This document shows, piece by piece, positions 17,771 to 63,666 of a DNA stretch of 64,000 nucleotides. Positions within the stretch are counted from its first letter, which is position 1; every line of letters starts with the position of its first letter. The notes beneath the pieces were generated by a model that worked only from the letters and a program-made list of their open reading frames with translations, was not told where the DNA came from and did no database searches. Location of the stretch: the NCBI GenBank assembly GCA_016188965.1, contig JACPGT010000011.1:37632-101631 (forward strand). Reading direction: 5' to 3'. Origin of the DNA: Microcaldota archaeon (GTDB lineage Archaea; Micrarchaeota; Micrarchaeia; Norongarragalinales; Norongarragalinaceae). The position numbers and the translations under genes are program-made.

Positions 17771-19075
17771 TCAGGAACCCAGTTTTCCGCCGAATTGCTT
17801 GCTCAACTTGGATAAGAGGCCCTTGTTGCGCTTGACTTCCTTGAGCATTTTCTGCGTTTTCTCGAACTGCTGCACCAATTCGCGGACGTCCGAATCCTTC
17901 ATGCCGGCACCACGGGCTACGCGGGCCTGGCGGCTGGATTCCTTCATCAGGGCCGGGTTGCGCCGCTCCGCCAGGGTCATGCTGTGCACTGCCGCCTCGA
18001 ACGACTTGAGCTTCTTCTCGCTTTGGCCCACCAGTTCCTCCGGCAAATCGTGCTGGCCCAGCATCTGCATGACGGACTTCAGGGGGCCCATCTTCTTGAA
18101 CGCGTTCAGTTGAGAAAGGAAAGTCTCATAATCCAGTTTGCCTTCGTTCCAGGCTTTTTCCAGCTTCTCTTCTTGAGAAGCCGCCTTAGCCGTTTCCAGC
18201 AATTGATCCAAGTCGGGAAAGCCCAGCAAGGTCGCGGCGAACTTCTTCGGATCGAACGCACGAAAATCGGCCAGTTTCTCACCCGAACCTAAGAAGGCGA
18301 TGCGCGAGCCGGATTCGACGACGGAGCTCAACGCGCCGCCGCCCTTGCCCGAGCCGTCCATCTTGGTGATGATGACGCCGGAGAGGCCGACGGCGTCGTG
18401 GAACTGCTTGGCCTGCCGCCCGGCCACCTGGCCGGCATCGGCCGAGACGACTAGGAAAGAGCCGTCGGGTTGGAATTCGCGCGCCACGGACTTCAGTTCA
18501 ACGGCCAGTTCTTCATCAAAAGCGCTGCGGCCGGCGGAATCCAGGATGACGACGTCGTACTTATCGGAGAGCGCGCGGGCCTCGCGCGTAATGGCCACCG
18601 CGTCGTTCGACTCCAACGTGAAGAACGCCACATGCGCCTGTTCGGAAAGCTGTTTTAATTGGGTGCGGGCCGCCGGACGGTGCACGTCGGCGCCCACCAG
18701 GACGACTCTAAGGCCTTTCGAAGCGTAAAAGCGCGCCAACTTGGCCGCCGTGGTGGTCTTTCCCACGCCGAACAAGCCGAGCAGGAGGATGCGTTGCTTC
18801 TGAAGCGAAGGTTCAAAGCCGTTGCCCATGAACGCTTCAAGTTCCTCGTAGACGACCTTGACGACGTGCTCCCGCAGGCCGACGCCGGGCAGAGGCTTTT
18901 CGCTCAAGGCGCGCTCTTTGATCTTCTTCGTCCAGCCCAGCACGAAGCGGACGTTGACGTCGTTGGAAATCAACACGCGCTGCAGGTCCTTGACCAGTTC
19001 GGTTACAGCCGCTTCGTCCACGTAGCGGCCCGACAGCTTGGCCAAAGCCTGACGCAATCCCTTACCCAGGTCCAT
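17771..19075 (-). CDS. srp54: Signal recognition particle GTPase SRP54
   Basis: The listed ORF is extended; the true start is the ATG at 19075 (MDLGKGLRQALAKLSG), giving 434 residues. Layout: N domain (1-90), G domain with GLFGVGKTTTAAK (about 100-112), GADVHRPAARTQL, DSAGR and TKMDGSGKGGGALS, then a Met-rich M domain (about 310-434) that binds 7S RNA and signal peptides. It targets nascent membrane and secreted proteins to the translocon. The G1 motif reads GLFGVGKTT where many homologues have GxQGxGKTT. Confidence 0.93.
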   Translation of the reverse strand: MDLGKGLRQALAKLSGRYVDEAAVTELVKDLQRVLISNDVNVRFVLGWTKKIKERALSEKPLPGVGLREHVVKVVYEELEAFMGNGFEPSLQKQRILLLGLFGVGKTTTAAKLARFYASKGLRVVLVGADVHRPAARTQLKQLSEQAHVAFFTLESNDAVAITREARALSDKYDVVILDSAGRSAFDEELAVELKSVAREFQPDGSFLVVSADAGQVAGRQAKQFHDAVGLSGVIITKMDGSGKGGGALSSVVESGSRIAFLGSGEKLADFRAFDPKKFAATLLGFPDLDQLLETAKAASQEEKLEKAWNEGKLDYETFLSQLNAFKKMGPLKSVMQMLGQHDLPEELVGQSEKKLKSFEAAVHSMTLAERRNPALMKESSRQARVARGAGMKDSDVRELVQQFEKTQKMLKEVKRNKGLLSKLSKQFGGKLGS

Positions 19076-19238
19076 GAGGAACAAATCGTGCCGAAAGGGA
19101 GTTAAAAATGAACGCGTACGGGGGAGGCCGAGGGGCAGCCCGGTGGCGGTCATGCTCCGCGCCGGAATCCAGAAAAAGAAGCCGCAAAGCGCAAGAAGCG
19201 TCGCAAAAGAATAAAGGCGGTTGCGACACTGTCGGCCA

Positions 19239-20642
19239 TCAGGCCGATTTTTTGTAGTACTCGTCCAAAAAGGCCGCGAATTGAGCATGGTCCGATAAGC
19301 CCTGTTCCAGCAGGTAGTCGAGCATCTTCTTGCGCGACGAGACTTCATCCATGATGTCTTTCGGGCGTTTGCCAGTGCCGTTGGCCAACTTCTCGATAGT
19401 GCCGGCCGGATTCGGCGTGCGTTCAATCGAATCGTTCTCCGAATTCCACGCGTAGACCTCGTTGATAGCCGGCCCGTTCTCGCCTGGAAACACTTCCGTC
19501 ACCTGCACCACCCGGCGCACCAAGCCGCGGCGGCGATCGTAGAAGCGCTGCTGGACCACGATCAAATCGGCCAGCGGCAGAAGCGAGCGGGGCACGTTCA
19601 TGGGGTTGTTCTCCAGGCGCGTGATGGCATCGCGCGCGTTGTTCGAATGAAACGTACCCGAAGCGCCGCGCAAGCCCGTGTTCATGGCCGTAAATAGCGT
19701 CTCGGCTTCCGAAGAGCGGATTTCGCCCAGGATAAGCCGGTCCGGACGCATGCGAAGCGAGTTAGTCAGCAGTTCCTGCGCCGTGGTGTGCGTGCCTGAA
19801 ATCAACGGAACCCAGTTCTGACGGCCCACCAAGTTCAACTCGGGCGTGTCCTCGATGGAAATGATGCGTTCATTCGGCGGAATCAGGCTGGACAACGCGT
19901 TGAGCGTCGTGGTCTTGCCCGCCGCGGCCGAGCCGACGATGAGCACGTTCAACGGGTAGAGGCGCAAACCTTCGAACGCGACCCACAAAAAAGCCGCGAC
20001 TTCCGAGGAAATGGTGTTTTCCTTGATGAGGCCCAGCAAGGAGAAGGGGCGCTGGTGGAAAAGCCGGACCGTAACGGCTGGAAACGGCGCGGCAGGCGAT
20101 TTGATGACGTTGGCACGCGAGCCGTCCACCAGACGCACGTCGTCGTACACGTTCTTGGACCCGAACTGCGAAAGGAGCGCGTCCAGGCTTTTTTCGTCGA
20201 AACGGAGGTTGGTGTTGCATACGCCGGCTTTGCGGTGGTAGACCATGACGGGCGTCTCGGTGCCGTTGATGAAGACTTCCTCCAGTTCGTCATCATCAAA
20301 AAGCGGTTGGATGACCTGGTAGCCGTAGAAGCGGCGCAGAACGGCGCGGGCGATGGCCGCCGGATTCTTCGCACCCGACAAAAGCATGGACAAAGCCGAC
20401 AGCAGTGCTTCGGATTTCTTGCGTTGCAGGGGAAGGCCGAATTCCAGCACGTCCAGCGAATTCATGAATTCCTGCCAACCGTTAACGTCGAATGCGTGCG
20501 TCTGGCAGAACGACGGCAACAACAACCGCCTCTCCACGAGGGCCACGACGTCGTTGAACACGGCCACGTCACTGCCGGACAACGCCTCGGGCTGGACGTC
20601 GTACATCGAAAACGGAAAACCCTTGGATACGGTGGCAGGCAT
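19239..20642 (-). CDS. Type II/IV secretion or archaeal pilus assembly ATPase
   Basis: The start at 20642 (MPATVSKGFPF) is chosen because a CTTATAGG box sits about 25 nt upstream; the ORF track extends 69 nt further. About 467 residues. Motifs of the GspE/PilB/VirB11 family are the Walker A GSAAAGKTTTLNAL, the Asp box ERIISIEDTPELNL, Walker B RLILGEIRSSEAETLF and the His-box-like GTFHSNNARDAITRL. It should power assembly of pilus-like structures or secretion of class III-signal proteins cut by the nearby A24 peptidase. A TadC-like membrane partner is not adjacent. Confidence 0.85.
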   Translation of the reverse strand: MPATVSKGFPFSMYDVQPEALSGSDVAVFNDVVALVERRLLLPSFCQTHAFDVNGWQEFMNSLDVLEFGLPLQRKKSEALLSALSMLLSGAKNPAAIARAVLRRFYGYQVIQPLFDDDELEEVFINGTETPVMVYHRKAGVCNTNLRFDEKSLDALLSQFGSKNVYDDVRLVDGSRANVIKSPAAPFPAVTVRLFHQRPFSLLGLIKENTISSEVAAFLWVAFEGLRLYPLNVLIVGSAAAGKTTTLNALSSLIPPNERIISIEDTPELNLVGRQNWVPLISGTHTTAQELLTNSLRMRPDRLILGEIRSSEAETLFTAMNTGLRGASGTFHSNNARDAITRLENNPMNVPRSLLPLADLIVVQQRFYDRRRGLVRRVVQVTEVFPGENGPAINEVYAWNSENDSIERTPNPAGTIEKLANGTGKRPKDIMDEVSSRKKMLDYLLEQGLSDHAQFAAFLDEYYKKSA

Positions 20643-24305: not shown

Positions 24306-24561
24306 AATGCAAAACACCTTCTGAAGGCTAATGGATTGAACCAACAAACCGTGCCGAAAACGGCTTTTATAGGTTGTGACATTAACGGGCCGACACAAAC
24401 AGCCGCCACGTCAGCCTTAAAAGACGCGCCCGCCACCGTTTATTTCTCCGGTCCCAGCCTGCCGGCGATTCCGCGTCGCCCGTTTTTCAGTCAGAAGGAA
24501 AGACCCGAGAACCCGCGGAGCTTGCGGTTGCACCCGGCAGGGTCCGACCGTTTTGCTCAAA

Positions 24562-26854: not shown

Positions 26855-27916
26855 CTAAACTTTCCGCACCAGTCTTCTTTTTCCAGGCCCGTCGACGTTC
26901 TGTTCTTCCTCGATCGTCACCAAACGCTTGTCGGCCAATTGCTCCAGGTAGCGCCGGAGCGTGCGTTCGGCCACATCCAGTTCCTTCTGCAAGTCGCCGG
27001 AATACTTCGGCCCGGCCTCCAAAGCGGCCAGGATCGATTGCTCGCCTTCCAAAGCGCCGGCCATGCGTTTTTTGACCGAAGCGTTCAGCGCGTCGTGTTC
27101 AGCCATGGCCGCCCGTACGTCATCCGGCGTCACTTTCAGCGCGCCGCGCCGCTCGGCCGCCTTGCCTGATTTCCACAACACGTCCAACGCCACGCGGGCG
27201 TCGCCACCGGTCTTCGCCGAATACGCCGCGCACAGCGCCACGGCCTCTTCCGGGCACGCGCCCATCTTGAACGCCTTGGGCAATCGGTCGCGCAGGATGG
27301 ATTTGAGCTCCAACGGCGAATAGCGGGGAAAATCCAACGGTTGCAATGAAAGCGAGCTTCTCACGCGGGAATCGAGTTTTTCGAACACGTCCGGCGTGTT
27401 GGTGATGGCCACCACCACGATGGGCACCGGCGAGCGCGACACGTCGTACAGCAATGCTTCTTCTTTCTTGTGGAAAAGCCGGTCGGCCTCGTCCAGCACC
27501 AGCACCAGGCGAATGTCGTTCTTCTGGATGAACTGCAGCAAGTCGGTGCGGACCTCGTCAGTGGCCAGGCCGCGGCGGGGCACGACCAAGCCTACCAACC
27601 GAGCGGCTTCGGCCAGGACGGACTGTTGGGTGTAATGCTGCCAGCAGTTGACGTATGCCACGTGGACGCGTTGCGCATATTCTTTGAATTGCTGCAGCAC
27701 GTACTTAGCTGAACTGGTCTTGCCCGTTCCTGGCGGGCCGAATATCAGCACTGAAGACGCCTTGCGCCCGGAGGCAAACGGACGCAACGCCATGGCCAGC
27801 TGTTCAATCTGTTTTTCGCGTCCCGGAAGGACGTCGGGCAGGAATTCAGGCGACAGGGCGGATTCGTCACGGAACACGCCGGACGCAGGCATTTCGTCAA
27901 AGACGTTGGAAGACAT
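26855..27916 (-). CDS. cdc6: Cdc6/Orc1 replication initiator
   Basis: The protein has 353 residues in the AAA+ fold: Walker A FGPPGTGKTSSAKYVL (about 60-75), Walker B LVLVLDEADRLFHKKEEALL, sensor-1-like VVAITNTPDVFEKLDSRVRSSL, the lid with GGDARVALDVLWK, and a C-terminal winged helix (SGDLQKELDVAERTLRRYL). It recognises origin recognition boxes and loads MCM. The intergenic region in front is only about 100 bp and I see no clustered repeats there, so the origin may be elsewhere (see the region near 55 kb). Confidence 0.9.
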   Translation of the reverse strand: MSSNVFDEMPASGVFRDESALSPEFLPDVLPGREKQIEQLAMALRPFASGRKASSVLIFGPPGTGKTSSAKYVLQQFKEYAQRVHVAYVNCWQHYTQQSVLAEAARLVGLVVPRRGLATDEVRTDLLQFIQKNDIRLVLVLDEADRLFHKKEEALLYDVSRSPVPIVVVAITNTPDVFEKLDSRVRSSLSLQPLDFPRYSPLELKSILRDRLPKAFKMGACPEEAVALCAAYSAKTGGDARVALDVLWKSGKAAERRGALKVTPDDVRAAMAEHDALNASVKKRMAGALEGEQSILAALEAGPKYSGDLQKELDVAERTLRRYLEQLADKRLVTIEEEQNVDGPGKRRLVRKV

Positions 27917-34514: not shown

Positions 34515-35399
34515 ATGACCAAGACCATCGCCGTCGTGGGCGCCGGAGGCGTGGGGGCCGAAACCCTGCTGCGGCTGAAACCCACGCACCACAGAATCCG
34601 CGTCATCGACCGCGATTTCATCGACGAAGACACGCTCAAACGCCAGACGCTCTACCGCAAAGCCGACTTAGGAAACCTCAAGGCGGATGCCGCGGCACGC
34701 AAATTGGGCAAACGGTTCGAAGCCGTCAGCGAACACCTGTCCGAAGAGAACGCCGAAGCCCTGCTGAAAGGCGCGGACGTCGTGCTGGACTGTACGGACA
34801 ACTGGGCCACGCGCGCGCTCATCAACCAGTGGGCCTTGGTGAACCGCACGCCGTGGATCTTCACGTCGGCCATCCGCAGCGAAACGATGACGACCTGCCT
34901 GACGCCGCAGACCGCGTGCTTCATCTGCTGGAACCCCAGCGCGCAAACGCCGCGCTCCTGCCGCGCCGAAGGCATCCGCAAAGCCACCACGGCCACGGCC
35001 GGCCACACCCAAGTGATAGAATTAGACGCGTTACTGGCCGGAAAGCCTAGTTTAGCCGGAAAACTGCAGTACACCGACGTGCAGGCAAAGACGTGCACCA
35101 CGACGGCACTTTTAAGAAATCCGAACTGCCCAGCATGCATGAAAAAAACGTTCCGCTTGCCGAAAACCAAGGCGCTGACGTTGTGCGGCAGCGACGAGTT
35201 CCTCTTCCAGCTGGAAAAGCCCGTTTTGCAGAAAGCGTTGGCTTCCTTGAAGCCCGAACGATTCGGCCAAGTGACGAAAATCGCCTGGAAAAAAAGAGTC
35301 CTAGTCGTCTTTCCTTCCGGCCGCATCCTCGCCCGCGGCATGGACGAAAAACAAGCCCGGGCAGCTATCGACACACTACGGCAGAAATCCGAAGCGTAA
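34515..35399 (+). CDS. E1-like ThiF/MoeB/HesA family adenylyltransferase
   Basis: The protein has 294 residues. The N-terminal nucleotide-binding motif is AVVGAGGVGAE (GxGGxG, 9-14), with DRDFIDEDTLKRQTLY and VLDCTDNWATR (D95). Zinc Cys pairs are CFIC (135/138) and CPAC (205/208). The candidate catalytic Cys is C149 in SCRAEGI, equivalent to the CxEAGV motif of MoeB/UbaA. It should adenylate the C-terminal Gly of a beta-grasp protein for sulfur transfer or conjugation. It is the only E1-like gene in the window and a possible activator of the Ubl at 63.4 kb, but it is 28 kb away. Confidence 0.85.
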   Translation: MTKTIAVVGAGGVGAETLLRLKPTHHRIRVIDRDFIDEDTLKRQTLYRKADLGNLKADAAARKLGKRFEAVSEHLSEENAEALLKGADVVLDCTDNWATRALINQWALVNRTPWIFTSAIRSETMTTCLTPQTACFICWNPSAQTPRSCRAEGIRKATTATAGHTQVIELDALLAGKPSLAGKLQYTDVQAKTCTTTALLRNPNCPACMKKTFRLPKTKALTLCGSDEFLFQLEKPVLQKALASLKPERFGQVTKIAWKKRVLVVFPSGRILARGMDEKQARAAIDTLRQKSEA

Positions 35400-38116: not shown

Positions 38117-38229
38117 CGGGCCCGGTGGGATTTGGACCCACGACATTTCGGTTTCCATGAACGAAGCCGCCAGTTGCGGTGGTTTCGCGCTTAAGAGCCG
38201 AACGCTCTGCCAAGCTGAGCTACGGGCCC
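38117..38229 (-). tRNA. tRNA-Lys(CTT) with intron
   Basis: Acceptor GGGCCCG/CGGGCCC with discriminator G; D arm GCTC-AGCTTGGCA-GAGC; anticodon stem TTCGG/CCGAA with loop CTCTTAA (anticodon CTT); T arm GTGGG-TCCAAAT-CCCAC. A 39-nt insertion (38153-38191) interrupts the anticodon loop, most simply at 37/38. The central BHB helix (CTCT with ATGG) has one mismatch, but the inner stem GCGCGAA/TTCGTTC supports a relaxed BHB. The T loop has TCC instead of TTC. Confidence 0.85.
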
Positions 38230-40978: not shown

Positions 40979-41085
40979 CAACAGCTAATTCGATTTTTAC
41001 GGATTAACTTTTGCCTCAAGGGTAGCCAGGAGTGCCCGCTGGGCTCATAACCCGGAGATCAGTGGTTCAAATCCACTCCCCGCTA
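40969..41085 (+). tRNA. Initiator tRNA-Met(CAT) with intron at position 9/10
   Basis: Exon 1 is AGCGGGGTA (40969-40977) and exon 2 is 41020-41085; the mature RNA is 75 nt. A1-T72 in the acceptor, D stem GGG/CCC, anticodon stem CTGGG/CCCGG with three G-C pairs (initiator hallmark), loop CTCATAA, T arm AGTGG-TTCAAAT-CCACT, discriminator A. The 42-nt intron (40978-41019) fits a bulge-helix-bulge: GGGG pairs with CCTC, with bulges TA^A and AA^G and an inner CAA/TTG helix. Exon 1 overlaps the last codons of the nuclease frame. Confidence 0.85.
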
Positions 41086-53738: not shown

Positions 53739-54692
53739 TTACGGCGCGTTTTGTCTTAATCCTTTTGTCCCCTTGGCCGGTGGACGTCCGCCTGCTGGCT
53801 CCTTCAACATACTACTTCCCTCGACTCCGCTTTCCAGCTCTTTCACGGCTGCCAAATCGGCCGCCGTGTCCTCCCACTCCATGCAATACCGCAGGATGTC
53901 GCTCAAGCGCGCCCACTCCAGCGCCGACTTGCGCCGCAACGCTGCCAAGTCTGCCGCCAAGGCTTCCTGGGCTTCCGACGCCGCCTCGCCCGTTTTGCCG
54001 TCGAAGAACTCCCCCGCTGCCTGCTCGTACGCCGCCCGCACTTGCGCCAACAACGCTTTGGAATGCCGCGGCCCTTCGGCGACGAACTGTTCCAACTCGT
54101 CCGCGACGTTCTCCAAGGCGTTGGCCGCCAACGCTTCAAAACGGCCCGACGCGCCGCCACCGGTTCCCATGCCCCGCAACGCCAACGTGTACCAGCGGTT
54201 GGCTTCCCGCTCCCTACGCTCCGCCGTGGCCGCCGCTTCGGCCGGTTTGGAAAACGCCGCTTCGGCCGCGTCGAACAACGAGCGGTTCACAGCATGCATC
54301 CGCCGCAACAACGTGCTCAACACGTATTCCTGCCCCGAAGCGTACACCCGCAGCGTCACTTGCCGCGGTGCCTCCGCTACGCCTTCCACGGCCGCCAAAT
54401 GCTGCCGCGCTGCCTCTGCCAACTCGGCGGCGGCTTTGCCGTTCAGCACGATGTGCTCCGCTCCGGCCACGTACGCTGAAATCACGGCTCTCAAGGCCTG
54501 TGGCCCATCAGCGTCCACCGCCGCGCTGCGTGCCGCCGGCTGGCCCTGCACATCCACCCGCAGCGCTCCGTCCGGCAACTGCTCCACGTGTGCCGCCGTT
54601 CCCTGCCGGACCCTTTTTGCGTCCGCCCAAGACTTCGGCAGCGACACGATGAACGTATTGCGTCCTGTTTTCTGAATCCGTCGCACATCCAT
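53739..54692 (-). CDS. PhoU-domain protein with AbrB-like N-terminus
   Basis: The start at 54692 (MDVRRIQKTGRNTFIVSLPK) gives 317 residues. The first ~45 form a SpoVT/AbrB hairpin domain (RRIQKTGRNTFIVSLPKSWA), the rest long helices of two PhoU repeats (LSTLLRRMHAVNRSLFDAAE; ALEWARLSDILRYCMEWEDT). This archaeal family regulates transcription in response to phosphate, as judged from related proteins. A GAATATAGA box is about 25 nt upstream. It heads a four-gene operon and stands at the left edge of the candidate origin region. Confidence 0.82.
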   Translation of the reverse strand: MDVRRIQKTGRNTFIVSLPKSWADAKRVRQGTAAHVEQLPDGALRVDVQGQPAARSAAVDADGPQALRAVISAYVAGAEHIVLNGKAAAELAEAARQHLAAVEGVAEAPRQVTLRVYASGQEYVLSTLLRRMHAVNRSLFDAAEAAFSKPAEAAATAERREREANRWYTLALRGMGTGGGASGRFEALAANALENVADELEQFVAEGPRHSKALLAQVRAAYEQAAGEFFDGKTGEAASEAQEALAADLAALRRKSALEWARLSDILRYCMEWEDTAADLAAVKELESGVEGSSMLKEPAGGRPPAKGTKGLRQNAP

Positions 54693-54771
54693 GTTTGTGG
54701 TATATATCATCTATATTCTATGTGGCGTTTGTATATATTAATTGGGTGTTTTGAGTGTTGTGGTTGGACGC

Positions 54772-54957
54772 ATGAAACTTCAAACGGAACCGGATCAAGC
54801 AGGATGGCTCTACGCAGGCTTTGTCATCGTATTGCTGTCCGCTTTGGTCTTGGCGCCCAACCCCGCGTTCATCGTGGCCAGCCTATTGGTGCTGGCCTTA
54901 TTCTACCCTTCTTCCGCTCCGCCCCAAGGAATCCTGGAACACCAGGCTCACCCTTGA
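54772..54957 (+). CDS. Small membrane protein, 61 aa
   Basis: The ATG at 54772 (MKLQTEPDQAGWLYAGFVIV) is preferred to a TTG at 54742. Two hydrophobic helices (VIVLLSALVLA; FIVASLLVLALF) are followed by a short hydrophilic tail. It is divergent from the PhoU/AbrB gene, with a GTATATATTAATT box upstream. No family recognised. Confidence 0.45.
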   Translation: MKLQTEPDQAGWLYAGFVIVLLSALVLAPNPAFIVASLLVLALFYPSSAPPQGILEHQAHP

Positions 54958-55682
54958 TTTTTCCCAAAGCCTCGTTTGTGTTGGCGGTATACCGTTCAAT
55001 GTTATGCCGGGGTTCGGTTCGCTTCTTTCAGAACCGTTTGCTGACGAAATGGGCAGATTTTCCTTGTCCGTACCTCTTCTCCATTTTGTTTGACCGCCCT
55101 CTTTCATACTCCCTTCCGCGCCCTTTTCGAGCAAACCGGATTTAAACGCCTTATTGTTGGGGCCGGGGCGGTTTTGGGTCGTTTTCTTTATTTACTCGTT
55201 GTTTTCAACGCTTTTTTGTCCACGGCCTTTTTTTTCAAAACCCCTTCTTTTTCTAGTTCGCCTATTTGCCGTTTCCGCTCGCGTTCGGGTCTTTCTGGGC
55301 AGGTTTTCCCCACCGCACTCTTTTTTTGAATAGCGGCAGTGGGGTGGTATGTCTTGATTTGCGTCAAAACCCTGTTTTGGACGTGTTTTACAGGGTTTAC
55401 TCAAAGGGTTTTGGGCGTTTCGGCCGGTTCTACCGTTTGGAGCCGAACGAGCCGTCCATTGTTTTTTTGGCCCAAATCTTTTGGCCATTTATTCTGGCCC
55501 GAACGGGCCGTTATTGGCATTTTGGCGGCCCGTGGTAGTTTTTGAGAATTTTTAAAATGGCCAGATCCATCGCGGGTCGTTTTTTCCAAATTTTTCGCTT
55601 TCAAAACCAAAAATCACCAAAACGTAGGCAGTTTTTTTTCATTTTTTGTTTTTTTGGGGGTTAATAATAGAGGAAGAAAATG

Positions 55683-55696
55683 CCGATTAGTGGAAC
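55683..55696 (+). other. Repeated 14-mer CCGATTAGTGGAAC
   Basis: Exact third copy of the 14-mer, inside the T-rich region. It is followed by AATGCGG and has no G-run. Variants of the same motif lie at 56322-56336 (minus, CCCGATTAGTTCAAC, in the end of the antitoxin-like gene) and 56653-56664 (plus, CGATTAGTTGAA). Confidence 0.55.
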
Positions 55697-56302
55697 AATG
55701 CGGTCTTGCTCAATATCAAAATGTTATATTGATTGGTCGATTGTTACTTCATTTTGGTGTGTTGGTTTATTCCTGGTTTAGCTCGTAGGCGCGTGTGCGG
55801 CTCGATCTGCGTGTCCGGCTCCCGTTGGCGTGTTCGGGTGTTTGTGCATGTTTTTCAAGTGCAAACCGTGATCGAAACGGGGCGCGAGTTGCCCGTTATT
55901 TTGTAATAATATATTGGTATTATGCGAATTCTTCTCAAGTGGTGTAACAAAAATAGCGGAACTGGCACTTTCGGGGTGTTTTAATTGCATTTCTTGTTTG
56001 GGCATCCCTGGGTGGCCCCTAGCCCTTATTCAATACTTTAATGGTGTAACTACATATTTGGTTTTGCCAACTGTGGCTTCTTTCCATGAGGTATTTTTGT
56101 CACTATTATGGTATTTGGTTATTACTAAAACATTGTAATGGTGTGTCGCATTTTTGTTTGATTTTGGTTGAACGGGCCGGCGGTGTGGTTTGCTTTGCAC
56201 GGCGCCGCCTAAATTGTGGTTTAAATGGCATTTTCAGGCCGTTTGGAGGTCGTTTATTGGTGTGTGTCTTGTTTAGGCACGCCCGAATGCGTGCGGGGTG
56301 CG

Positions 56303-56584
56303 TTACTTTTGTTCTGCTTTAGTTGAACTAATCGGGTTTTTTTCGTCTTTGAACGCCTTGTGATGCATCGAAAACCATTTGAGGGAGTCGGCAAATTCAT
56401 CCGCTTCGGCCTTATTTTGGCTCTTTTCGGCCCCGGCGGGGCTTCTGCGGGCTACTTTATCTTCCAGAAGCGCTTGGATTGTCTTGTCCAGGCTGAACCG
56501 TGTTCCATGGCGTGCCTGCAATTTTCCTGACAGTTTTTGGAGCTGATTGTATGTCTCTTCTTGCACACGAATAAGTTTTGTCAT
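56303..56584 (-). CDS. VapB-like antitoxin, 93 aa
   Basis: It starts MTKLIRVQEETYNQLQKLSG and continues with RHGTRFSLDKTIQALLEDK, the strand-helix-helix pattern of archaeal ribbon-helix-helix antitoxins. A charged tail follows. A GATTTAAATAG box lies about 33 nt upstream. No toxin (PIN or RelE) is adjacent on either side, so it is an orphan or a DNA-binding regulator. Confidence 0.6.
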   Translation of the reverse strand: MTKLIRVQEETYNQLQKLSGKLQARHGTRFSLDKTIQALLEDKVARRSPAGAEKSQNKAEADEFADSLKWFSMHHKAFKDEKNPISSTKAEQK

Positions 56585-56817
56585 AGGGTAATTTATGTTA
56601 ACTTTGTTTCACTATTTAAATCTATTTACGTCTAAAATTGGTAGTTTGGCGTCGATTAGTTGAAAATTGATTCTGTATTCTGTGTTTACTCTTTTTTGTT
56701 CTGCGTCATGTTATCGGTGTTTACTGGCAGTGTTTACTAAATTTATCTACTTAATTTACTTTTGGGTTTTGGTGGAATTCGTTTTCTGCCCCATTTTTTC
56801 AAGAAATTTTGATTTTC

Positions 56818-57450
56818 CTGCCTATTTTTGGCATTTTTTGGTCATTTTTGATCAAAACGCAGCTGTTTCGGGCCCAATTCGCTCGCTTTCGGCCCTTTGT
56901 ATCGGCATTTGGCTTATTTTCAGCAAAAATGCGTGAAAATCTGCCTGTTTTGGCGCATTATGCGCCCGATTTGTGGTTTTCCGGCCCGTTTCAATCGTTT
57001 AGAGGCGATTTTTTGGTCTCTTTTTACCTCCAAACCTCAAAATTCGCGTTATTTGCCCCGAATCTACCTTTTTCGTCGTTTTTCACAGATTTTGGCGTGT
57101 TTTTAGTTGTTTTTGATGTGCCTTTGGCGCAGGTTTGGTCTTTCAATGCAAAAAATCAGTGTTTTTACCCAAAATCTGCCTATTTCGGGCCTTTTTGGCC
57201 CTTTTTTCTTTGTTTTAGTCAACGAGATGGTGGTTTTCGGACTTTTCCCTTGTGTTTTGACCCAATTCAATCAAAAAACAGGCGTTTTTTGTGTTTTTCT
57301 GCCTATTTTGGCTCGTTTTGGTTGTTTTACGTCTCGAATCGACCATTCCGGGTGAATTTCTGCTCACGTTGCCTCTTGGCGGGCTATTTTTCCCGATTTT
57401 TACTGTAGTGGGGCCTTTCGAGCCCTATCGGTTTGCCCTTTTCTACCTGC
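56818..57450. repeat. Degenerate ~123-bp tandem repeat, T-rich
   Basis: The motif CTGCCTATTTTGG or close variants recurs at about 56818, 56941, 57064, 57176, 57299 and 57443, i.e. steps of 123, 123, 112, 123 and 144. Units end with an A-rich AAAAT before the next CTGCC or CTACC. The + frame 56809-57408 translates to repeated segments such as NLPVLAHY, NLPFSSFF, SAYFGPFW and SAYFGSFW, but it is Phe-rich junk-like sequence and probably reflects the DNA repeat. Confidence 0.55.
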
Positions 57451-57543
57451 CGTTTGCTTTGTCGGCTTATTTTGGCCTGTTTTTGAGTTTTCTGCCTATG
57501 TTTAATTTTGGGTTCTCTGGTTGTTTTCGCCCCATATTCCATT

Positions 57544-57568
57544 GCCTTTAAATAGCCTATTTAAAGGC
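57544..57568. repeat. Perfect 25-bp palindrome
   Basis: GCCTTTAAATAG and CTATTTAAAGGC flank a single C: 12-bp perfect arms. It lies at the right end of the T-rich region, 135 nt past the 3' end of the minus-strand 460-aa gene. It could be a dimeric protein site, a cruciform or a terminator hairpin. Confidence 0.65.
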
Positions 57569-57702
57569 TCGGACGGCACGGTTGCCTTCAAATGGTCTGA
57601 ATGTGCCTTAAAGGTTGTTTTTGGCGTGTATGGGCGTCGTGTTGGGGTTTGGGTGTGTGTCGGGCGCGAGGGGCCGCCTAAGTTTTGGCGGTATACCGTA
57701 GG

Positions 57703-59085
57703 TCATAGTTCGCGCATCATGCGCCGCTGCCGAAGTTTTTCAAGGCTGATGAGTGTGGCTGGCTCGACGCTTACCCGGCGTTCGTTTTGCCAACTCACGC
57801 GGGCGCTGGTTTTTCTTTTGTAGCGGGGTTGGTACTCGACGCGGACGACGGGGGCGGCGGCGTAGGCCTTGAGGATGGTGCCCGGCCTGTTTTGTAACGC
57901 CTCGGCGGTTTTCTTCAGGTCGATGATGTGGAGTTTCTGCTGGTGGGGTATGATCCACCAGATGGGGTGGGGGCTTTGGAGGATGGCTTGCCGTTGTTCC
58001 GGGTTTTTGAGCGCGTCGTAGAGGTGTTGCTCGATGGTCATGTCGTGGTCGTATCCTGCCGCATCGGTGAATTGGCGGTAGGCGACGGTCACGTCGCGCT
58101 CGTCCGTCCGGCTTGCGGTGAATTCGGCGGTCTCATCGACGCTGGGGTGCCTTCCGGTATAGAATGCGATGGCGGCCTGCCGGCTGGGGCGGGGCAGTTG
58201 TCGGGCGAGGTCCTGCGTCCATTGGCGTAGCGTCTTCTCGACGTTCTTCTGGCGCGTCCGGGCGGTTTTTTTTGCAGTGGCTTGTTGGCCGTGCAGTTTG
58301 ACCATCTGGGCGACGGCGAATCGGTAGCGCAGGGCGTGGCTGGCGATCCGGATTTTTCGGGTGATGACGGGGCGCATAGACCGTGGCGCTTCATGTGTTT
58401 TTCGGGTGTCTTCGCGCGGCTCGCCGTGCTGGACCAAACCGGCCGGTTCGATTTCAACGATGATGGGGATGCGGTGCGGGGCCATGGGTTTGGTCTGGAC
58501 GACCAAGTCGGCGGGCCAGCCGCGTTTTCGCAGGACTTCGTTGAGGTCCTCGCCGGGTTTCATGGCGCGGATCCAGCGGACGAAGTTGGGCGGTGCGTCG
58601 GGTGCGCTCTGGTCGCGGATGGGCCCGAGGGTCGTCTCGCCGCGGCCGACGATTTCGTAGTGGCTGGGATGTTTGTGCAGCAGGTCCTGGAATTCGCGGC
58701 GTATCTTCCAGCCGCGGTCGCTCATGCTGGCGATGCGGAGGCGGGCTTTCTGTACGATGGCGTCTTGCAGTGCCTGGCTGCAGCCGGCCAGTATTCTTTT
58801 TTCTTCGGCGCGAAGCTTTCGTCCCAGCCGCTGGGTGAGGCGGGTTTCCGTTTGGACGTGCAGTTCAAGCGCGGTTTTGATGATTTCGCGGTCTTCGGGG
58901 CGGGGGTAGATGGCGTCGCCCAGTATGTTTTGGATTTCGTCCCATGCGGGGTCGGAGTCCGGTTTTGCCTGTGCTTCCAATTCGGCCCATTTTTTCGGGT
59001 TTTCCCTTCGGTTTTGCTTGAGCCGTTCGACGGCGTCCATGAGGTATTGCTCGATGTGTTTGGCCTCGTGGGGGAGCATCGTCAT
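57703..59085 (-). CDS. Hypothetical protein, 460 aa
   Basis: No family recognised. The N-terminal half is helical and charged (HEAKHIEQYLMDAVERLKQN; LGRKLRAEEKRILAG), followed by a region with strands (RIPIIVEIEPAGLVQHGEPR), a basic linker (ATAKKTARTRQKNVEK) and a C-terminal part with PIWWIIPHQQKLHIIDLKKT. The real start may be M3 (59079), given the TTTTATT box 24-30 nt before it. It shares a compact divergent promoter with the Lhr helicase, suggesting linked expression. Confidence 0.65.
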   Translation of the reverse strand: MTMLPHEAKHIEQYLMDAVERLKQNRRENPKKWAELEAQAKPDSDPAWDEIQNILGDAIYPRPEDREIIKTALELHVQTETRLTQRLGRKLRAEEKRILAGCSQALQDAIVQKARLRIASMSDRGWKIRREFQDLLHKHPSHYEIVGRGETTLGPIRDQSAPDAPPNFVRWIRAMKPGEDLNEVLRKRGWPADLVVQTKPMAPHRIPIIVEIEPAGLVQHGEPREDTRKTHEAPRSMRPVITRKIRIASHALRYRFAVAQMVKLHGQQATAKKTARTRQKNVEKTLRQWTQDLARQLPRPSRQAAIAFYTGRHPSVDETAEFTASRTDERDVTVAYRQFTDAAGYDHDMTIEQHLYDALKNPEQRQAILQSPHPIWWIIPHQQKLHIIDLKKTAEALQNRPGTILKAYAAAPVVRVEYQPRYKRKTSARVSWQNERRVSVEPATLISLEKLRQRRMMREL

Positions 59086-59113: not shown

Positions 59114-61900
59114 ATGTCTTCCGACCCGGCCAGCTTGCTTCATCCGTCCGTCTTGGAGTTGGCTCGGCACAAGGGCTTTTTGGCATTCACACCGGTCCAG
59201 CGGGAGGCGTTTCCGCGCATCGTCGCGGGGCAGGACGTCCTGTTGATGGCGCCGACGGGTTTTGGAAAGACCGAGGCAGCGGTTTTGCCCATTTTGTCGA
59301 AGCTTGCCCAGTTGAAGGCCGAGGGCGTGGTGCTGGAGGGCGTGCAGGCGTTGTACATCACGCCGCTGCGCGCGCTGAACCGCGACATGGTCGAGCGGCT
59401 TTCCTTCTTTTGCAAGATGTTGGGCCTCACGTTGGGCGTGCGTCACGGGGATACTAGTTCGTACGAGCGGGTCAAGCAGAAACAGCAGCCTCCGCACATC
59501 TTGGTGACGACGCCGGAGAGCCTGGGGGCCTTGTTGGTCGCCGGCATGCGGGATTCGCTGAAAAACGTCCGGTTCGTCGTGGTTGACGAGGTGCATGAGT
59601 TGGCGTATTCCAAGCGTGGCGTGCAGTTGAGTCTGGCGTTGGCGCGCCTGTCGTTGTTGGCCAAATTCCAGACCATCGGCCTGTCCGCGACGGTGGCCAG
59701 CCCGAGGGACGTGGCGGCTTTCTTAGGGCCCAAGGTTGAAATCGTGGATGCTTCGGGGTTGCGCAAGATGCATTTGGAGGTCGTGCGTCCCAAGGAAGGC
59801 GTGGCGTTGGAGGGCATGAGCCGCGAGACGGCTTCTCGCCTGGCGGCGTTGTCCGACTTGGTACGCACGCACAAAAAGACGTTGGTTTTCGTGAATACGC
59901 GGTTCATGGCCGAGGCGCTCGGCGCGCTTTTGCGGCCTCTTTTGGGTGAGGATTTCGCGGTTCATCATTCGTCTCTTTCCAAGGAGGCCCGCTTGGAAGT
60001 GGAGCAGTTGTTCAAGTCCGGCGGTTTGAAGGCCCTAGTCTGCACGTCGTCCTTGGAGTTGGGCATGGACATCGGCGACGTGGATTTGGTGGTGCAGGTC
60101 GGCTCTCCGCGGCAGGTGACGCGTCTGGTGCAGCGGGTGGGCCGTTCGGGTCATAAGCACCATTTGGTTCCCAAGGGCGTCGTGGTGGCGACGGATGATT
60201 TAGACCAGGTGGAGGCCGAGGTGTTGGTGGTTTTGGCGCATGCGCGCCGTTTGGAGCCGCAGGCGTTGCGGAACGGCTGCCTGGACGTGCTGGCGCATCA
60301 AATCGCGGGCCTGGCGCTTGATTTTGGTCGTATCCGGCTACGGGGGGCGGTGGACGTGTTCCGTGCCCGGTCGTATTTGTACCGCGATCTGGATTTGGTG
60401 GCTGCGCGGGCCGTGGTGGACCAACTGTCGTCCGAGGGGTTGGTGGCGTTCGATGGCGACTTCATTGAGCCGAACGCTCGTACGCGGTTCTACTATTACG
60501 AGAACTTGAGCACTATTGCGGATTTGAAGAAGTTCTTTGTCAAGAACGCCGAGGCGAACAAAAACGTTGCCCTGTTAGACGAGGCGTTCGTTTCTAACTA
60601 TCTGCAGGTGGGCGCGGCGTTCATCGCGCGTGGCCGGGCGTGGAAAGTCCTGTCGATGGACGAGGAGGAAATCGTGGTGGAGCCGGCGCGGGACGTCGAA
60701 GCGGCGATTCCGGACTGGGTGGGGGAGGAAATCCCGGTGGAAAAAGGCGTGGCGGCGTTGGTGGCGCAGGCCGTGGCCGGACGGGCTGACGCGGTCATCG
60801 GCAAGGAAAATGAGGGCGGCGGTTCCGCGGCAGGACCCCGCGAGGACGTCACCGCTGCATCTGGGTTGTTTGGTGCTGAGGCTGGCGGCGCAACGGATGC
60901 TGTTGTCGTGCCCGCGGTTGCTTCCGATTCGTTTTCGCGTGCGTTCGTTTCCAAGCAGGCGGCTTTTTTCACTCCGTCAGCCAGCACCCTGGTTGTGGAG
61001 TGTCAGAAGTCGGTGGCTGTCGTGCACGCTTTCTTCGGGCACAAGATCAACGCCGCTTTGGCGCAGTTGTTGGCGGCTTCCTTTGCGGCGCGCGGAAAAG
61101 CGGTGCGGACGCGCGCGTCGGCGTACGGCGTGGTGTTGGAGTTCTCGAAAGCCGCGGACGGCGAGGCGGTGGCCTCCATCCTTCGCTCGCTCAAGGGCGC
61201 CGCTGTGCGGCCAATGTTGGAAAAGCAGTTGCCCGAATCGCCGATGTTCGCCACGCGTTTCGTGCACGTGGCCAAGCGCTTCGGCTTCTTGCGCAAGGAC
61301 CGCGACTATACGGCCGTAAGCGTCAAGCGGCTGGCGGTTTTGATGCGGGAGTCGGTCATCGGCCGCGAAGTGCTGGCCGAATTGTTCTACGACAAGCTGG
61401 ATGCGGTGGGTCTGGAGGAAGCTTTGCCGTCGGCGTCGGTGCGCGTATTAGCTGCGGACCACTGGTCGGCTTTGGCCAAGGCCATGCTGGACGCCGGCGG
61501 GTTTTCCGAGTTGTATGCCGCGTCGGAGCCGACGGAGAAAGTGGTCAAGGCCTTTGAGGAAGACCTGTTGGCCAAGCGGGTGGTGCTGCATTGCGATTTC
61601 TGCAAGCAGCGCTTCTCGCGCCAATTGTCGGCGCTTAAGGAGCCGCTGAAATGCATCCATTGTGATTCGCCGCGGTTGTTTCCGGAAGATTATCTGTCCA
61701 AGCCGGAGCAGGCGCGCGTGGCCGGGCTGGTGTCCAGTTACGGCCGAAAAGCGGTCTTGGCCCTTAGCACGTATGGCGTGGGTCCGGAGGGCGCGGCGCG
61801 CGTCTTGTCGCGGCTGCACAAGACGGATGTTGATTTGTTCTACGACTTGTTGCAGTCGCAGAAGGATTTCATCCGGACGAAGAAGTTCTGGAAGGCATAA
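59114..61900 (+). CDS. lhr: Lhr-type superfamily 2 helicase
   Basis: The protein has 928 residues. Motifs: Q-like FTPVQREAFPRI, Walker A APTGFGKTEAAVLP, Ia ITPLRALNRDM, Ib TTPESL, DEVH in VVVDEVHELAYSKRG, III LSATVAS, IV/V VCTSSLELGMDIGDVDLVVQ, VI QRVGRSGHK. A winged helix and Lhr core follow. The C-terminus has a Cys4 zinc site (CDFCKQRF...CIHCDSPRLF). A low-complexity Gly/Ala insert lies near 560-605. Archaeal Lhr helicases act in DNA repair and recombination. Confidence 0.9.
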   Translation: MSSDPASLLHPSVLELARHKGFLAFTPVQREAFPRIVAGQDVLLMAPTGFGKTEAAVLPILSKLAQLKAEGVVLEGVQALYITPLRALNRDMVERLSFFCKMLGLTLGVRHGDTSSYERVKQKQQPPHILVTTPESLGALLVAGMRDSLKNVRFVVVDEVHELAYSKRGVQLSLALARLSLLAKFQTIGLSATVASPRDVAAFLGPKVEIVDASGLRKMHLEVVRPKEGVALEGMSRETASRLAALSDLVRTHKKTLVFVNTRFMAEALGALLRPLLGEDFAVHHSSLSKEARLEVEQLFKSGGLKALVCTSSLELGMDIGDVDLVVQVGSPRQVTRLVQRVGRSGHKHHLVPKGVVVATDDLDQVEAEVLVVLAHARRLEPQALRNGCLDVLAHQIAGLALDFGRIRLRGAVDVFRARSYLYRDLDLVAARAVVDQLSSEGLVAFDGDFIEPNARTRFYYYENLSTIADLKKFFVKNAEANKNVALLDEAFVSNYLQVGAAFIARGRAWKVLSMDEEEIVVEPARDVEAAIPDWVGEEIPVEKGVAALVAQAVAGRADAVIGKENEGGGSAAGPREDVTAASGLFGAEAGGATDAVVVPAVASDSFSRAFVSKQAAFFTPSASTLVVECQKSVAVVHAFFGHKINAALAQLLAASFAARGKAVRTRASAYGVVLEFSKAADGEAVASILRSLKGAAVRPMLEKQLPESPMFATRFVHVAKRFGFLRKDRDYTAVSVKRLAVLMRESVIGREVLAELFYDKLDAVGLEEALPSASVRVLAADHWSALAKAMLDAGGFSELYAASEPTEKVVKAFEEDLLAKRVVLHCDFCKQRFSRQLSALKEPLKCIHCDSPRLFPEDYLSKPEQARVAGLVSSYGRKAVLALSTYGVGPEGAARVLSRLHKTDVDLFYDLLQSQKDFIRTKKFWKA

Positions 61901-62457: not shown

Positions 62458-62871
62458 TCAATTCTGCCAGTTTTTGCGTGCGTCTTCGAGCAAGCCCCGG
62501 GGTTCGGGTTTATCCCAAATCACTTTTCGTGGGAGTACGCCGATAATTTCCAGCCGCTGCCGGATTCGTTCACGGGCCGCTTCGAGGTTTTTATGGCCGG
62601 CGTAGATGTTGGCGGTAAGCGTCATGTGGGCTTCCTTCGGATTAGTTCCAGGCTCTATCCGCAACTGGGTGAGTCCGGCAGGCTTTAATTCGGATTTGAT
62701 TTGTTCCCAGTACGCGCCGGCGCCTTCAGAGTTGGTTCCATCGGGCAGTTCGGCGCGGACGTGCACGATGACCCTTCCCGACGTGAAATGTTCGACCTTC
62801 ACTTCGCGTTGATCGTATCGTATTCTTGCGGTTGACTCCAACTCGGCCAACCGGTTGAAAAACGGAATCAT
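62458..62871 (-). CDS. Uncharacterised protein of the Ubl/E2 operon, 137 aa
   Basis: The start at 62871 (MIPFFNRLAELESTARIRYD) overlaps the E2 stop as ATGA; the longer track ORF is a shadow of E2. It has a strand-rich centre (VKVEHFTSGRVIVHVRAELP, THMTL-like AHMTLTANIY) and a charged C-terminal helix (EAARERIRQRLEIIG). No Cys and no known motif. Tight coupling to E2 suggests a partner subunit. Confidence 0.65.
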   Translation of the reverse strand: MIPFFNRLAELESTARIRYDQREVKVEHFTSGRVIVHVRAELPDGTNSEGAGAYWEQIKSELKPAGLTQLRIEPGTNPKEAHMTLTANIYAGHKNLEAARERIRQRLEIIGVLPRKVIWDKPEPRGLLEDARKNWQN

Positions 62872-63335
62872 AACTTGACCACCCTCGGCCCTTTGGGTAC
62901 GTTTTGTTCCAGTTCGGGGTGTTCCAGGTAGTATCGCGCCGCTTCCTCGTTCAGCGGGCTTTGTGGGTTGGGGTTTTTCAGAAGCTGGTATAGTGCGTTG
63001 ATGACGGAAAGCAGGGTCTGGCCTTCGCTCCATTGGTTGACCAGTTGGATGCAGACGGCGCCGTCTTCGGCCCGGATGTTGGGATGGAAAATGGGAGTCA
63101 GCCAGTAGACCATCAATCCGCCGGGGTAGGGGTAGTCGCGGGTCAGTTCAATCAGGACGGTGTGCTGCGTTCGGGTGTATAGTTGGCCGTTGTCCAGAAA
63201 CTTTCCTGGCGCGTTGGTGAGGCTGACGGTGTACTCCATGCCGTCTTGGGATGCTTCGAAATGGATGCCGGCGGCGGTCAGTTCCCCTGTTTCGCTTTGG
63301 AGGCGTCGTTGGAAGATGGCGTCGGGAAGTCGCAT
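62868..63335 (-). CDS. E2 ubiquitin-conjugating enzyme-like protein
   Basis: From the ATG at 63335 it has 155 residues; a TTG at 63347 is also possible. UBC landmarks in order: TVLIELTRDYPYPGGLMVYW (PxxPP-like strand turn), HPN motif in TPIFHPNIRAEDG, catalytic Cys nine residues later (GAVCIQLV), then Trp in NQWSEGQTLLSVINALYQLL and NPNPQSPLNEEAARYYLEHP, the typical E2 C-terminal helices. It should carry a Ubl as a thioester and pass it to lysine. A TATA-like AAAAATAAG stands upstream in the 88-nt gap after the Ubl gene. Confidence 0.93.
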   Translation of the reverse strand: MRLPDAIFQRRLQSETGELTAAGIHFEASQDGMEYTVSLTNAPGKFLDNGQLYTRTQHTVLIELTRDYPYPGGLMVYWLTPIFHPNIRAEDGAVCIQLVNQWSEGQTLLSVINALYQLLKNPNPQSPLNEEAARYYLEHPELEQNVPKGPRVVKL

Positions 63336-63423
63336 ACGCAAGACCAAGTCGAATGCATGGCTAGGATGATACGCTTATTTTTGTTTTTGCATGTCCGGCG
63401 TGCGCGGCGTAACCGTGTTTTTT

Positions 63424-63666
63424 TCATCCGCCGGTGGGGTCCGGCATGAGCAGCAGGTGGTCGTTTTCCTTGACTCCGGCTTCGCCGATGGTCACGTCGG
63501 GGCCTAGGATGCGGTGGTCGGCCGTGGATAGAACGAAGCGGTCCTTGAGTTTGAGGCTGTCGGACAGCACGTCGAGGATGGATGAGACGGTGAACGCCGG
63601 TTCAACGGCGACGACCACTTCTTTTCCGGACGTGGTGTGGGTGATGGTGATGTTGAATTCAGTCAT
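63424..63666 (-). CDS. Ubiquitin-like modifier ending in Gly-Gly
   Basis: The protein has 80 residues. The beta-grasp pattern is clear: two N-terminal strands (FNITITHTTSGKEVVVAVEP), helix (FTVSSILDVLSDSLKL), strand RFVLSTADHRIL, and the ubiquitin-like TIGEAGVKENDHLLLMPD. It ends PTGG directly at the stop codon, so no processing is needed. Neighbouring E2 argues for protein conjugation over sulfur-carrier function (MoaD/ThiS). The start overlaps the stop of a small upstream frame. Confidence 0.88.
   Translation of the reverse strand: MTEFNITITHTTSGKEVVVAVEPAFTVSSILDVLSDSLKLKDRFVLSTADHRILGPDVTIGEAGVKENDHLLLMPDPTGG

Follow-up and report, generated by a model that had tools for sequence, protein, structure and literature searches.

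The segment between 54.98 and 57.70 kb of the window, about 2.7 kb from one bracketing palindrome to the other, is very probably the chromosomal replication origin of this archaeon, and apparently the only one. The window is the stretch of 64,000 nucleotides analysed here, the right-hand 64 kb of a 101.6-kb contig (C15), and the segment lies in a T-rich spacer of about 3 kb. The source genome (G000) is a 1.37-Mb draft of 21 contigs, 89% complete, so that a second origin could lie in the missing sequence; the genes of all its contigs were called by our own codon-usage method. Judged by its named relatives, which are Candidatus Micrarchaeota from groundwater, the source organism is a DPANN archaeon of that group.

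Strand composition of the genome

The + strand is rich in A and C up to the locus and rich in G and T beyond it, as the original prediction had it; the zone of change, about 51.7–55.3 kb, overlaps only in its right part with the 54.7–57.7 kb that had been proposed. The cumulative GC-skew minimum of the whole of C15 falls inside the spacer (window position 55,320), and the cumulative keto minimum, which is also the AT maximum, falls 3 kb to its left (51,702). This offset counts against an origin at the spacer, though the GC minimum lies inside it. The depth of the V on C15 is matched by none of 10,000 block permutations, and by 20 of 10,000 when the block signs are also flipped.

The switch had been claimed to be independent of gene direction, and the four-fold degenerate sites bear this out: their AT skew is positive to the left and negative to the right for genes on both strands, with values for the two strands of +0.26 and +0.36 on A-rich contigs and −0.33 and −0.22 on T-rich contigs. 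GC skew is strongly affected by the direction of the genes, and with so large a transcription component it is a poorer witness than AT and keto skew. A single AT-skew sign runs along whole contigs; C1 is T-rich over 392 kb, and C4 and C17 are A-rich over 152 and 197 kb, respectively.

A two-state model over genes was applied to the 19 contigs with enough genes (1.36 of 1.37 Mb), and the possibility that the skew minimum lies elsewhere did not materialize: exactly one A-to-T switch was found, on C15 at the spacer locus. Exactly one T-to-A switch was found as well, on C13 near 37.6 kb (outside the window), which is a candidate replication terminus. Since an A-to-T change is unaffected by the arbitrary orientation of contigs, the pattern is that of one origin and one terminus, and the locus carries the global minimum of cumulative strand skew expected of a bidirectional chromosomal origin.

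Genes, boxes and palindromes of the spacer

The nearest genes on either side of the spacer are both on the minus strand and the T-rich spacer is gene-poor, in agreement with the original prediction, yet it contains two small genes or ORFs that are conserved in relatives (56303..56584 and 54772..54957). The genes of the locus, with the nearest initiator gene, are as follows.

26855..27916, minus strand: Orc1/Cdc6 initiator paralog, 27 kb from the spacer
53739..54710, minus strand: left flanking gene, 323 aa, N terminus like an AbrB/MazE-type swapped hairpin (Pfam: MazE 0.04 alone)
54772..54957, plus strand: hydrophobic ORF, 61 aa, matched by ORFs in the corresponding position of G001, G002 and G008
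56303..56584, minus strand: ribbon-helix-helix-like (RHH-like) gene inside the spacer, 93 aa, weak VAPB_antitox match
57703..59085, minus strand: right flanking gene, 460 aa, an orphan between the right palindrome and Lhr
59114..61900, plus strand: Lhr-type large helicase, the syntenic anchor of the locus

The 323-aa protein is probably an archaeal PhoU-like regulator by sequence resemblance, and its ortholog borders the spacer of G001 too. Orthologs of the RHH-like gene occur within the corresponding spacer of G001 and G002, and in G006 and G004 they adjoin Lhr. The designation "-like" reflects a weak Pfam similarity and a low-confidence predicted structure of the 93-aa protein (helix-helix, pLDDT 68), and a fold search with this model gave no significant match. 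No relative of the 460-aa gene was found in the genomes of 59 relatives or in the genome contigs, and as an orphan it was dropped as a synteny anchor. The second of the two Orc1/Cdc6 paralogs in the genome is on contig C1; no initiator gene adjoins the spacer, the nearest orc1/cdc6 being 27 kb away (about 25 kb in G001). A ParA-family gene beside the spacer was likewise not found, the AAA_31 search giving one clear match, on C13, and another match that overlaps the SRP54 gene (window 17771–19426).

Near the right end of the window is a gene for a canonical ubiquitin-conjugating E2 (62868–63347, minus strand; PF00179 at 2e-19, with HPN and the active-site Cys, and PDB UBE2B at 3.5e-13), which adjoins the gene for a ubiquitin-like protein of 80 aa with TGG at its C terminus (63424–63666, minus strand). 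The E2 is present in 26 of the 28 genomes searched, which comprise G000 and relatives, and frequently has Lhr as a neighbour, whereas it was found in 0 of 14 control genomes; no pairing of Micrarchaeota with ubiquitin-conjugating was found in the open-licence literature. A ThiF/E1-like protein (34515–35399, plus strand; PF00899 at 2.7e-38) is a possible partner of the E2 and ubiquitin-like pair. Two tRNA-like Rfam matches that have no ARAGORN call lie at 38117–38229 (minus strand; 113 nt, which may contain an intron) and 41019–41077 (plus strand).

The spacer carries copies of an asymmetric 17-bp element, about WWWWYCTGCCYA, termed here the CTGCC box. Boxes were scored with a PWM of 17 positions trained solely on G001, G002, G003 and G006, with G000 held out. 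The elements of the spacer are as follows.

54983..54994: left bracketing palindrome GGCGGTATACCG, one of two copies in 1.37 Mb
55046..55062, minus strand: CTGCC box GAAAATCTGCCCATTTC, 21.2 bits
55292..55308, minus strand: CTGCC box GAAAACCTGCCCAGAAA, 14.0 bits
55621..55637, minus strand: CTGCC box AAAAAACTGCCTACGTT, 18.1 bits
55686..56147: core in which ATTAGTGGAAC / AATAGCGGAAC and TAATGGTGTAAC-like motifs recur; the alignment of G000, G001 and G002 has conserved blocks here
56614..56763: candidate duplex unwinding element, TTTACT-rich, 71% A+T
56780..56796, plus strand: weak CTGCC box CGTTTTCTGCCCCATTT, 10.0 bits
56812..56828, plus strand: CTGCC box ATTTTCCTGCCTATTTT, 22.6 bits
56935..56951, plus strand: CTGCC box GAAAATCTGCCTGTTTT, 16.3 bits
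57170..57186, plus strand: CTGCC box CAAAATCTGCCTATTTC, 20.8 bits
57293..57309, plus strand: CTGCC box GTTTTTCTGCCTATTTT, 22.8 bits
57354..57370, plus strand: degenerate CTGCC box GAATTTCTGCTCACGTT, 13.7 bits
57486..57502, plus strand: CTGCC box AGTTTTCTGCCTATGTT, 17.9 bits
57544..57568: perfect palindrome with 12-nt arms, GCCTTTAAATAG/CTATTTAAAGGC, TATA-like
57687..57698: right bracketing palindrome GGCGGTATACCG, the other of two copies in 1.37 Mb

Three minus-strand boxes lie left of the core and seven plus-strand boxes (five clear, two weaker) right of it, an arrangement of inverted asymmetric repeats flanking an AT-rich element. That element is of the kind expected of an Orc1/Cdc6-type archaeal origin, and only 17 of 54,516 genome windows of 150 bp are as AT-rich as the 150 bp at 56614. 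Central TGGTGT and AGTGGAA repeats are enriched in the core, and GGCGGTATACCG occurs in G000 once at each spacer end and nowhere else. At 12 bits, the held-out PWM gives 73 matches over the whole of G000, 9 of which fall in the 3-kb spacer against 0.14 expected; this is the top cluster, the densest other 3 kb holding 2. Near both orc1 genes the matches are scattered and form no cluster. A weak secondary cluster at 24–29 kb of C1, seen at a low threshold, was rejected as due to AT-richness (2 matches at 12 bits). Gene-poor islands of low GC (0.40–0.44), possibly integrated elements, were noted at C15:19.2–26.4 kb (outside the window), C1:24–29 kb and C17:180–185 kb.

The locus in related genomes

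The locus was compared with that of G001, from the same genus, and of G003, G006 and G009, from other genera. In G001, the PhoU-like gene (minus strand) and the Lhr helicase gene (plus strand) flank a 3.1-kb AT-rich spacer (61,314–64,397), and on this 180-kb contig the keto argmin lies at the left spacer edge (61,248) and the GC argmin within the spacer (63,539). G003 has a compact version with five boxes, in which the keto argmin lies at 24,393 and near-palindromes at 24,435 and 25,873 bracket the locus, and in G006 the RHH-like gene adjoins Lhr and a weak keto minimum is found there. The recurrence of the switch at orthologous or homologous loci, more weakly in the two other genera than in G001, together with the single switch genome-wide, supports the candidate replication origin that had been proposed.

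In terms of the palindromes, GGCGGTATACCG is found exactly at both spacer ends in G001 and G002, variants of it around a central TATA are found in G003 and G009, and palindromes similar to that at 57544..57568 occupy the corresponding place in G001 and G002. Extra exact palindromes in G001 (contig C6) and G020 (contig C57) were rejected as second origins, as they lie in coding or promoter DNA and no boxes accompany them. The inverted box layout is seen likewise in G002, G003 and G009; G001 has a plus-strand box where left minus-strand boxes are expected, and its own left minus-strand boxes are weak.

For box scans across genomes, models were built without G001 or without G003, and the genus of G009 was never in training. 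The model built without the scanned genome places 9 of 11 matches in 180 kb within the G001 spacer and 5 of 6 matches in 29 kb within the G003 spacer. In G009, a single 1.7-kb stretch, located about 3 kb upstream of the Lhr gene, holds 9 of the 13 matches in 180 kb, three on the minus strand followed by six on the plus strand; bracketing near-palindromes and a shortened RHH-like gene are also present in it. The box array is present in G009 and G004 with no clear local skew minimum, which indicates that the two do not always go together. Order-level relatives gave no clear counterpart of this anatomy, which was found within one family only.

Proposed replication model, rival readings and known origins

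We infer that replication forks start at the spacer, that the boxes are Orc1 sites, and that the RHH-like protein and the palindromes regulate initiation. One of the two Orc1/Cdc6 paralogs is the probable initiator; it would bind the CTGCC boxes, which, oppositely oriented on either side of the core, would act as the origin recognition boxes (ORBs) of this lineage. Melting of the AT-rich DNA at about 56.6 kb would follow, and two MCM helicases would be loaded facing apart. Of the two forks leaving the spacer, the one moving left would copy the + strand as lagging strand and the one moving right as leading strand, and over evolution this asymmetry would have produced the observed A/C-to-G/T switch. 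More speculatively, the probable role of the end palindromes and the embedded RHH-like protein is to bind the origin or to regulate it, for instance by restricting initiation or by coupling it to segregation.

A variant of this model, which we regard as unlikely, is that the boxes and palindromes are recognised by a non-Orc1 protein, perhaps the RHH-like one, which in this Micrarchaeota family initiates or licenses replication; if true, this would be a replicator-initiator pairing new to archaea. Less probable still is that the box array is mainly a partition site (centromere) or an RHH-bound regulatory region near the replication start and distinct from it. RHH proteins such as SegB and ParG are common centromere binders, the RHH-like gene sits inside the array and is conserved together with it, and the keto extremum is 3 kb off the spacer. 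However, no ParA-type ATPase is adjacent, the sole clear AAA_31 match being on C13, G009 retains the array although its RHH-like gene is shortened, and the skew minimum with the inverted layout around an AT-rich core fits an origin better.

There is very little probability that an ancestral origin shaped the skew and that replication now starts elsewhere, near orc1/cdc6 or in an origin-free manner. The orc1 genes are 27 kb away and on another contig, and Thermococcus kodakarensis is described as replicating independently of Cdc6 and an origin (PMC5663688); against this, neither orc1 gene has a skew minimum or box cluster, and different genera have kept the boxes, palindromes and AT-rich core. 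It is scarcely credible that the switch marks a misassembly or the border of a large inversion: it stands alone, on a contig of a draft assembly and 9 kb from the contig end, and C13 carries a reverse switch, but in the independent assemblies of G001, G003 and (weakly) G006 the composition switches at the homologous position, gene order being conserved, and an inversion would not create the conserved inverted-box anatomy of the spacer.

A chromosomal origin at the spacer has to be set against the known archaeal origins, which typically comprise an AT-rich region flanked by ORBs beside the initiator gene (PMC4010727). Sulfolobus oriC1 requires both ORB2 and ORB3, which lie in inverted orientation on either side of its unwinding element (PMC12141716). 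The spacer resembles Pyrococcus oriC and Sulfolobus oriC1 in its AT-rich region with asymmetric repeated boxes inverted around it and in the presence of Orc1/Cdc6 in the genome, and resembles Pyrococcus in being a single origin. It differs from these ORB origins in its boxes, which read WWWWYCTGCCYA whereas the ORB core is CAGTGGAAAC, in the distance of 27 kb to orc1/cdc6, in its unique bracketing palindromes and embedded RHH-like gene, and in its length of about 2.7 kb. The canonical ORB TTCCAGTGGAAAC gave one 2-mismatch match in the window against 1.83 expected; the sole exact genome match of this mini-ORB, on C11, was set aside, as it forms no cluster and lies inside an ORF reading like an ABC-type permease, probably a transporter gene. 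The lack of a canonical ORB cluster and of an adjacent orc1/cdc6 counts against an origin, and with a layout that is origin-like the spacer is best described as a variant of the archaeal origin, not a standard member.

Haloarchaeal orc-adjacent origins share the diverse, lineage-specific boxes in inverted arrays; unlike the single, non-adjacent one here, they lie beside their cognate orc1/cdc6 and number several per genome. Single-peak skew is reported for 18 of 224 archaeal RefSeq genomes, all Euryarchaeota, and for one DPANN archaeon (PMC7111523). The genome studied here shares with that DPANN archaeon a bacterial-like single-peak cumulative skew; the review that cites the latter describes no origin anatomy (PMC7111523), whereas here a probable origin is located together with its elements. 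The origins of DPANN archaea are almost undescribed, and among open-licence full texts no located Micrarchaeota origin was found. The spacer suggests that archaeal origins can sit far from the initiator gene and use unfamiliar boxes, and tools that seek ORBs beside cdc6 would probably miss such an origin. With a located origin, the replication rate of organisms that nobody can grow could be derived from the peak-to-trough pattern of metagenome coverage, and the spacer offers concrete DNA sites for tests with purified Orc1 and RHH protein.
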